NCBI GenBank assembly: GCA_019636535.1
Contig: JAHBXK010000017.1
Span: 1-64,000, forward strand
Reading direction: 5' to 3'
From: Phycisphaeraceae bacterium
GTDB taxonomy: Bacteria > Planctomycetota > Phycisphaerae > Phycisphaerales > UBA1924
Length of the DNA stretch: 64,000 bases
This document shows positions 1,048-2,839 of the stretch, piece after piece. Position 1 is the stretch's first letter. Every line of letters starts with the position of its first letter. Below the pieces are notes generated by a model. That model was not told the origin of the DNA and ran no database searches. It saw only the letters and a list, made by a program, of their open reading frames with translations. The translations under genes and the position numbers were made by a program.

Positions 1048-1518
1048 TCAGCCAGCGCTGCCGCGCGGCCCCACGAGCAGGAACCGGCCGATCTGGGCGT
1101 CGAACTCCTCGGCGGGTGAGGCCGGATCGACCGCGCGGAAGCGGTAGTGCCCCTCCATCGTGCCCCACGAGGTCTCGAGCGGGCAAAGGCTGGAGTACTC
1201 GAACGACTGGCCGGGACCGAGCAGCGGACGCTGCCCCACGACGCCCTCACCGCGCACGACCTTGCGGTCGCCGTCGGCGTCGATGATCGTCCACTCGCGC
1301 GACTCGAGCCGCACGGTGACGGCGGACTCGTTGGTGATCCGGATCCGGTAGGCGAAGACAAACTTGTGATCGGCGGGGTCGGACTGGTCGGGGAGATAGG
1401 AGGGCCAGACCGAGACGCGCACACCGTGGGTGGTCCGCTCGGAACTCGGCGCAGCGGCCGGCGACCTGTTCAGCGCGTTCTGGGCGATGGGGGTGGGCGT
1501 GGGCGTGGACTGCGTCAT
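1048..1518 (-). CDS. apaG: ApaG (DUF525) domain protein
   Basis: The 156-residue product has a Pro/Thr-rich N-terminal tail of about 35 residues followed by a complete ApaG immunoglobulin-like fold. Recognisable family landmarks are HKFVFAYRIRITNES, the SREWTIIDADG strand, GEGVVGQRPLLGPGQSFEY and GTMEGHYRF. The ATG at 1518 is preferred because the domain begins soon after it; longer upstream reading is Arg/Pro-rich and unlike the family. ApaG proteins are linked genetically to magnesium/cobalt tolerance in enterobacteria, but their biochemical role is not settled. There is no Shine-Dalgarno sequence because the upstream leader is an extreme C-rich stretch on the coding strand (1528-1566). The gene ends 12 bp before the arginase-family start and is probably cotranscribed with it. 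Confidence 0.9.
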   Translation of the reverse strand: MTQSTPTPTPIAQNALNRSPAAAPSSERTTHGVRVSVWPSYLPDQSDPADHKFVFAYRIRITNESAVTVRLESREWTIIDADGDRKVVRGEGVVGQRPLLGPGQSFEYSSLCPLETSWGTMEGHYRFRAVDPASPAEEFDAQIGRFLLVGPRGSAG

Positions 1519-1726: not shown

Positions 1727-2839
1727 CTACGTGCCCTGCCCAGCGCTGGATCGCATCCCCACGAGACGCGCGGCTTCGGACAAGCCGCTGCGCAGATCAT
1801 GCGCGAAACCGTCCGCGCCGGTCGATCTCCAACTGTCGCGGTTCCCACCGGCGAACGCGGCGCCGCCGACGAGGATGCGCGGTGGGGCCTTGCCGATGCC
1901 CCGCGCTGCACGCACGGTCCGGATGATGTCGGGGATCTGCGTGGCGAGCGAAGCGCTGACGGCGATCAGGTTTGCGCCGAAGTCGTGCGCGGCCTGGGCC
2001 CAGTCCTCGGCCGGGACGCTTGCGCCGAGGAAGATCACGCGCCAGCCGTCGGCCTCGAGCAGGTCGGCGAGCATGCGGACACCGATCTCGTGCGCGTTGC
2101 CGTCGACGCTCCCCGCCACCACGGTGAAGCCGTTGCGCGGCTTGCGCTGATGGAACGGGTAGAGCAGCGAGACGACCATCTGCGTGGTGCTGGTGGCGAA
2201 GTGCTCCTCCCCGACGGAGGTCTCGTTCATCTGCCACATGCGGCCGAGTTCGTGCTGGACCGGCAGCAGGACCGACTCGAAGATCTCGAGCACGCTCGGC
2301 CGGACGAGGTCGGGATCGGTCCCGCGCGCGGCGGAGAGGACGAGTTCCGCCGCCGCGTGACGGTCGCCCTCGAGGATCGAGAGGAGGTACTTCGCGGCCA
2401 ATCGGCCGTGCGGCGTGTCGGCGTGGAGCCTGCTGGGAACGTACTCGGGCGCCGAGTCGAGGCGATCGATCGCCCGGCGGACAATCGCCGATGAGCGAGA
2501 GCCCTGGGCGCTGGGCAACTCCCGCTCCAGCACGTCGGCCATGGCGATCAAGCTCTCGCGAAGGTCGTGGATCGAATCGTCGCCCGCACGCGCAGCGAAG
2601 GCGGCCTTGGCCCACTCCACCTGGTCGATGAACAGCGTGTCGTGGCCCGCGATGAGCGCGGCGGCCAGGTCGGCCAAGCGCGACTCGATGTTCCGCTTCC
2701 AGTTGGCCTCCGCGTTGGGCTGGTATCGGCCACGGCAGGAGGGCCGTCGCTCGAAGAGCGCTTCCACCGTCAGCGCTGCGAAGGCCGGCGCCCCGGTGGC
2801 GATGAGTTGCCCGGCGAAGGCGTTGGTCGAGGTGGACAT
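1727..2839 (-). CDS. CarH/AerR-type cobalamin-binding photosensor protein without HTH domain
   Basis: The 370-residue product ends in a B12 module like that of the light-responsive regulator CarH. A helical cap (about residues 140-235) carries the motif W-x9-E-H (Trp202, Glu212, His213), known in CarH to shield the upper face of adenosylcobalamin. A Rossmann-type B12-binding domain follows, with DGNAHEIG supplying the lower axial ligand (His250); the 37-residue gap from His213 to His250 is close to the CarH spacing. No MerR-type DNA-binding domain precedes it. The N-terminal 130 residues are an unrecognised helical region. The ATG at 2839 is chosen because the longer frame runs back into a low-quality Arg-rich stretch overlapping the VWA gene's end. 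By analogy with AerR it may act through a protein partner; that is inference. Confidence 0.85.
   Translation of the reverse strand: MSTSTNAFAGQLIATGAPAFAALTVEALFERRPSCRGRYQPNAEANWKRNIESRLADLAAALIAGHDTLFIDQVEWAKAAFAARAGDDSIHDLRESLIAMADVLERELPSAQGSRSSAIVRRAIDRLDSAPEYVPSRLHADTPHGRLAAKYLLSILEGDRHAAAELVLSAARGTDPDLVRPSVLEIFESVLLPVQHELGRMWQMNETSVGEEHFATSTTQMVVSLLYPFHQRKPRNGFTVVAGSVDGNAHEIGVRMLADLLEADGWRVIFLGASVPAEDWAQAAHDFGANLIAVSASLATQIPDIIRTVRAARGIGKAPPRILVGGAAFAGGNRDSWRSTGADGFAHDLRSGLSEAARLVGMRSSAGQGT

Follow-up and report, generated by a model that had tools for sequence, protein, structure and literature searches.

The window analysed here, a stretch of 64,000 nucleotides at the beginning of contig C9 in a genome of 3.56 Mb and 71 contigs, encodes a real but unusual photocobilin. 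Judged from its sequence and its structure model, the 370-residue product of the gene at 1727-2839 (minus strand, ATG start) is an order-swapped member of this class of photoreceptors, with the globin first and the B12 domain last. The protein is probably an adenosylcobalamin (AdoCbl)-based light sensor that acts by protein contact, with B12 as the only chromophore in most of its clade. The 2024 characterisation of photocobilins relied on two proteins that do not belong to the group of the window protein, and an output was demonstrated solely for a fused cyclase. The available text of that study (PMC10979010) already mentions, in outline, members whose B12 domain lies at one end or the other. 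The main text names STAS, SpoIIE and PP2C-type partners and does not mention ECF factors, fasciclin or planctomycetes. Titles and abstract openings of the papers retrieved in literature searches reveal no planctomycete photocobilin and no link between photocobilins and ECF factors; the photoglobin paper of Schneider et al. 2022 may cover such architectures. The new observations are that, in one clade, the B12 light site is conserved and the bilin site eroded, and that an ECF sigma neighbour recurs. A clade that keeps the former site and erodes the latter reveals which chromophore is essential, and the recurrent ECF sigma/anti-sigma neighbour provides a testable output for standalone photocobilins. 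The features of the locus are as follows.

1727-2839, minus strand: photocobilin gene P0001 (globin-CBD), from the 370-residue translation, Pfam, the family alignment, the profile and AlphaFold.
2450-2839, minus strand: photoglobin or phycobiliprotein-like helical domain, residues 1-130, from profile A2 against the PDB and fold comparison (Z 15.6-17.0).
2690-2701, minus strand: W47-K-R-N50, at the position of the photoglobin CxQD motif, with N50 aligned to the biliverdin-binding Asp270 of SasPcob.
2612-2614, minus strand: W76, the equivalent of SasPcob Trp296, invariant in 42/42 proteins.
2162-2398, minus strand: B12-binding_2 four-helix bundle (adenosyl pocket), residues 148-226 (PF02607).
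2201-2236, minus strand: W202-x9-E212-H213, putative upper-ligand pocket and dimer interface, from the alignment and motif counts.
1811-2125, minus strand: B12-binding Rossmann domain, residues 239-343 (PF02310).
2090-2101, minus strand: G247-N-A-H250, predicted lower axial cobalt ligand, equivalent to SasPcob His108.
1135-1389, minus strand: ApaG (PF04379, by Pfam), immediately downstream of the photocobilin gene.

An earlier note on this DNA proposed a CarH-type B12 light-sensor domain, and this assignment holds. Pfam identifies B12-binding_2 (E 6e-13) and B12-binding (E 1.3e-19), and the motifs W202-x9-E212-H213 and D246-G-N-A-H250-E-I-G are both present. Residues W202, E212, H213 and H250 are identical throughout a 17-sequence family alignment. 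The motifs GxxW, EH, GxxH and GxxxP, which are named as light-response signatures in the available text of PMC11796333, lie at residues 199-202, 212-213, 247-250 and 272-276. All four are kept in 36 of the 38 fully readable sequences among 42 family proteins, a set from which six duplicates (L063-L067 and L082) were excluded, and the other two sequences deviate by one letter. Among solved structures, the protein is closest in sequence to SasPcob (8j2w/8j2x) and to the CarH-like 8jbs. The protein shares with CarH and LitR (5c8d, 8c31) the CBD fold (Z 19-20) and the AdoCbl pocket motifs, and its own genome encodes a PF01923 adenosyltransferase.

Unlike CarH and LitR, the window protein has no MerR domain, as the earlier note had also stated; Pfam detects no HTH or other DNA-binding domain along its 370 residues. 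The same combination of a CBD-type fold (Z 19-20) and no DNA-binding domain is found in AerR (7te2) and AppA SCHIC (4heh), which, in contrast to the window protein, lack a photoglobin. Among the outputs raised in that note, protein-protein control is judged the most likely, and the lack of a MerR or HTH domain in the sequence supports this view. A further difference from CarH concerns His132, the second ligand of the light state, for which an H132A variant is named in PDB titles. The residue at this position, directly following Trp202, is Gln203 in the window protein, and in the alignment SasPcob likewise carries Gln beside the Trp. Given Gln203 instead of His132, the light state of the window protein should be ligated by water or hydroxide, which is what the available text of PMC10979010 reports for SasPcob. 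A His occupies the position in 24 of 39 family members, and those relatives could form a CarH-like bis-His state.

The N-terminus, which the earlier note took for a new 130-residue helical region, proves by profile and fold to be a photoglobin domain, that is, a globin of the bilin-binding type. Pfam gives no match on the N-terminal part alone or on residues 1-147 of the window protein, and a phmmer search with the single N-terminal sequence gave no informative match (a LysR chain at E 1.8 was the best). Profile A2, which combines 18 N-terminal domains, was searched against all PDB sequences and retrieved SasPcob (8j2w, 2.8e-11; 8j2x, 3.1e-11) and AbPcob (8j2y, 1.7e-5), followed by allophycocyanins from 0.009. 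One of the 18 members also matches Pfam Phycobilisome (1.3e-7). The A2 match covers 227-319 of 8j2w, which is the C-terminal biliverdin-binding globin, and the domain order is thus reversed in the window protein. AlphaFold models were obtained for the full-length protein (pLDDT 93.6, pTM 0.90) and the N-domain (pLDDT 94.3, 0.88). The N-domain model superposes on allophycocyanin with Z 17.0 (2.1 Å, 126 residues), on smURFP with Z 16.2 and on the photocobilins 8j2x/8j2w with Z 15.7/15.6; for the full model, photocobilins are the best fold matches (residues 141-364, Z 25.6, 1.9 Å, 208 residues). These photocobilin structures were retrieved with VIA-align and are absent from the best 50 plain Foldseek matches of either model. 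Plain Foldseek yielded modest E-values for the N-domain (best 5e-3) and, among the best 50 matches of the full model, many CarH-type chains. A DNA-binding N-terminus, which the earlier note had regarded as evidence against its reading, was checked by Pfam and fold searches and rejected: Pfam finds no HTH, and the fold matches listed are mostly phycobiliproteins, the remainder being smURFP, photocobilins, designed proteins and a small number of other globins.

The window protein therefore resembles SasPcob (8j2w/8j2x) and AbDPcob (8j2y) (Zhang et al. 2024, PMC10979010) in pairing a CarH-type CBD with a globin or photoglobin domain, and in its W-x9-EH, GxxH and Trp296-equivalent residues. It differs in domain order, in the replacement of Asp270 by Asn, in a Trp at the phycobilin Cys position and in having no fused output domain. 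Its closest named full-length relative is 35% identical and comes from a Phycisphaeraceae MAG (L006), which suggests a planctomycete close to Phycisphaerae as the source of the window. Full-length relatives are encoded in 15 of the 61 genomes searched (16 genes), in addition to L006 and a Nitrospirales MAG (L007). A search for the N-terminal domain across the phylum (planctomycete by inference), as suggested in the earlier note, gave profile matches in 38 of 392 genomes. The spread count rests on 30 loci fetched from matched genomes, and the globin stands ahead of the B12 domain in one frame in 29 of them. The remaining locus, L077, holds a standalone globin ORF; inspection by eye of a larger stretch (L095) places a histidine-kinase-like frame next to it, and a CBD was not detected there. 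A 40-row unrooted tree, from which L077 and L086 were omitted (CBD missing or cut), sets apart four CxxD/AxxD proteins (L007, L041, L087 and L089; 91/96). The 24-row group of the window protein (83/89, weak) has the Trp and no Asp in 24/24 members. One photocobilin (L083, 838-3393, minus strand) carries an N-terminal extension of approximately 500 residues, without a Pfam match there. An internal TGA flagged in some relatives was dismissed, as in the forward-strand loci read it is simply the normal stop codon at the C-terminus, and a PHROGs search gave no match.

The bilin site has not been kept to the same degree as the B12 site. According to the available text of PMC10979010, biliverdin in SasPcob is held by Asp270 and Trp296, and Trp296 contacts both bilin ring D and the corrin. 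SasPcob His108 is chain residue 102 (offset 6), which places Asp270 at the second D of TLDD in the alignment; AbPcob has His at this position, in agreement with the same source, and the alignment register is thereby confirmed. In the window protein, the position is occupied by Asn50, and Trp47 stands at the position of the Cys in the phycobiliprotein CxRD motif (described in the available text of PMC10151467). Across the 42 proteins, the Trp296 position is always W and the Asp270 position is variable (D 10, H 8, A 6, N 5, E 3, S 3, others 7); Trp is usual at the phycobilin Cys position, and the L018-type relative combines the two as WxxD. Compensation for the Asp loss by Trp47 was considered and rejected (Fisher p 1.5e-5, not significant after relatedness, with 2-3 independent pairs), as the tree implies only 3 changes for W and 5 for D, and their association is not built of independent events.

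The window protein has the Trp296 equivalent and lacks the Asp, which is also missing from the founding member AbPcob. SasPcob binds biliverdin with a Kd of about 0.7 uM when AdoCbl is present (PMC10979010). As AbPcob, with His replacing Asp, still binds some biliverdin and responds to red light (PMC10979010, available text), the loss of Asp is expected to weaken rather than abolish binding. This behaviour favours a two-chromophore photocobilin, in which biliverdin from the heme oxygenase of the same genome would bind non-covalently and red light would drive AdoCbl cleavage, as in SasPcob. Such a protein would also account for the retained globin fold and the invariant Trp, and the genome does encode one PF01126 heme oxygenase. 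In G011, which also carries a window-type photocobilin (L053), a CVED paralogue (L041, 5143-6258) is followed 9 bp downstream by a divergent heme-oxygenase gene in an apparent operon (L041, 4591-6258, minus strand). Against this reading stand Asn50, the rarity of Asp in the family, the Trp at the Cys position and the distribution of PF01126, which is undetected in 27 of 39 photocobilin genomes (for the PF01126 family only, in assemblies 84-99% complete). Overall, we regard the use of two chromophores as unlikely. A heme oxygenase as co-occurring bilin source was rejected, since PF01126 is present in 8/15 photocobilin genomes vs 27/46 genomes without a photocobilin (Fisher p 0.77); of 24 additional genomes with a photocobilin, 4 contain it, 3 of them above the cut-off. 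A PHY phytochrome is absent from the window genome and present in 1 of 61 genomes. In one genome without PF01126, a tryptophan 2,3-dioxygenase-like gene (L042, 5475-6410, minus strand) lies just downstream of the photocobilin.

Taken together, the B12 signature in 36/38 sequences, the bilin Asp in 10/42 proteins and the lack of PF01126 in 27/39 genomes suggest that light is probably sensed through B12 only in most of the clade of the window protein, where tight binding of biliverdin by the globin has probably been lost. Evidence against this loss is that the genome has a heme oxygenase and that AbPcob binds some biliverdin without the Asp. Together, the tree and the distribution of heme oxygenase suggest that a bilin-using form was kept in the CxxD group and that the site eroded in the group of the window protein, a direction that is inferred as the tree is unrooted. 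The BBAG-2/photoglobin lineage (Rockwell et al. 2023, PMC10151467, available text) likewise ties a bilin-type globin to a B12 domain, and the CxxD members L007, L041 and L089, along with the heme-oxygenase neighbour of L041, resemble it. In contrast to the window clade, the BBAG-2 globins described there are separate genes beside B12 genes, and the window clade lacks the Cys and Asp of CxQD.

A light-independent corrinoid protein, whether a sensor of AdoCbl level or redox state or a corrinoid methyl carrier, would be consistent with the NCBIfam matches to the carriers MtgC and MtbC, whose E-values (1e-10 to 5e-14) are at about the CarH level. However, all NCBIfam scores are far under the cut-offs (52 bits against 370-400; 52/370 for MtgC, 41/350 for MtbC), W-x9-EH and the set of four light signatures have been conserved, photoreceptors are the closest relatives of solved structure and no methyltransferase gene was seen beside the window gene; a role of this kind is improbable. 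Very improbable is an anti-repressor of the MerR protein P0002 (contig C71) of the same genome, which combines an HTH with degenerate B12 domains and could be controlled as class II LitR is by short-LOV in Pseudomonas (PMC9758184, available text), as the P0002 and photocobilin genes are not neighbours and P0002-like genes occur in 4/15 photocobilin genomes vs 16/46 without (p 0.75). P0002 (L145, 8471-9433, minus strand; L005) is a CarH-like protein that keeps W-x9-EH and is missing the cobalt-ligand His; similar genes occur in 20 of 61 genomes.

For the preferred B12-based light sensor, candidate partners were sought among neighbouring genes. The survey covered 36 loci with flanks of approximately 7-15 kb, namely the window, L006, L007, 13 of the relatives and 20 of the 24 further genomes; the flanks of G046, G058, G143, G161, G240 and G372 lie outside this count, and the ECF gene of L112, where the photocobilin is cut at the contig end, is included. 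Controls were 20 stretches (400 kb) from 17 genomes of the same set, compared with 424 kb of photocobilin loci. A single ECF sigma group recurs close to the photocobilin, in 11/36 loci vs 0/20 control stretches (Fisher p 0.005 by loci and 0.0007 by length, with kinship among loci uncorrected). A query with the ECF sigma factor on contig C1 of the window genome, which was unused in discovery, gave the same 11 vs 0. RskA-like anti-sigma genes (8/36), fasciclin (7/36) and DUF1365 (3/36) are each found in 0/20 controls, with profiles built from the loci themselves. Pfam domains of example neighbours include Sigma70_r2/r4, Fasciclin, CIA30, FA_desaturase, Amino_oxidase, DUF1365 and CMAS, and RskA_C was found in one of four anti-sigma-like proteins tested. 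Lipid-desaturase and DUF1365 genes are among the recurrent neighbours of ECF-linked photocobilins. In L099 and L096, the photocobilin lies beside both the RskA-like and the ECF gene. In the window genome, the C1 sigma gene (E 1.3e-81) overlaps by 4 bp an RskA-like gene without a Pfam match, and a fasciclin gene is present on C45.

The search for partner genes suggested in the earlier note thus identified an ECF factor enriched near the photocobilins of relatives and none beside the window gene. No ECF gene of the linked group is present anywhere within the window, and in the loci read none lies near the photocobilins of f1, the family to which the window protein belongs; an ECF output for the window protein is therefore an analogy. 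Light-driven protein-protein control of an ECF switch would be the likely form of output; that this particular protein works through such a switch is a tentative proposal, with the balance tilted against it. Light control through an ECF/anti-sigma pair is known from CarQ-CarR of Myxococcus, where it operates through singlet oxygen (PMC9304148, available text). As a whole, the interpretation in the earlier note is partly supported.

In the proposed mechanism, the C-terminal CarH-like domain would hold AdoCbl base-off on His250, with Trp202 and Glu212-His213 predicted to surround the adenosyl group. The protein would be a dimer in the dark, and light would break the Co-C bond and separate the dimer. 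The N-terminal globin may cap the corrin edge, similar to the C-terminal globin in SasPcob. Given the probable loss of bilin binding, light would be sensed through B12 alone, and, as there is no DNA-binding domain, output would occur by protein contact. Within the wider family, the partner with the strongest support would be the ECF sigma/RskA-like anti-sigma pair, which may control envelope, lipid and photo-stress genes. In its most extended and rather doubtful form, this scheme envisages bilin-free photocobilins in the phylum, in which all that remains of the globin is a lid or a surface for docking, and in which photolysis of B12 by light would free or bind an RskA-like anti-sigma factor so that an ECF sigma factor turns on a photo-stress regulon. 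If correct, it would constitute a direct route from B12 and light to a sigma factor, without a DNA-binding photoreceptor or a singlet-oxygen step, and would offer a natural green-light-only photocobilin for optogenetics.

Several other genes were observed in these neighbourhoods. The earlier note reported no carotenoid or bch genes nearby, and a by-eye reading of a list of likely window ORFs revealed none. ApaG was rejected as a partner, as it is near the photocobilin in 3/36 loci and elsewhere, in the photocobilin genomes of the 61, is on another contig, distant or not found. Gene order differs among the three genomes with ApaG near the photocobilin (window, 1135-1389, minus strand; L043, 5487-6596; L006, 196-714), two of which also have a dienelactone hydrolase near the photocobilin. 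In L046, the genes directly upstream encode a kinase and an ECF factor of another type (PF07638). The Nitrospirales photocobilin (L007, 3127-5671, plus strand) is followed by an ABM-domain histidine kinase gene, with a response-regulator-like ORF further on. On contig C23 of the window genome (L142, 6892-7965 and 8109-8693, plus strand), another protein with a B12 fold, which like P0002 lacks the ligand His, is encoded directly upstream of an ECF sigma gene. The window also harbors a DNA photolyase (PF00875, PF03441; 46829-48277, minus strand) and a photolyase-related DPRP protein (PF04244; 24436-26076, minus strand).
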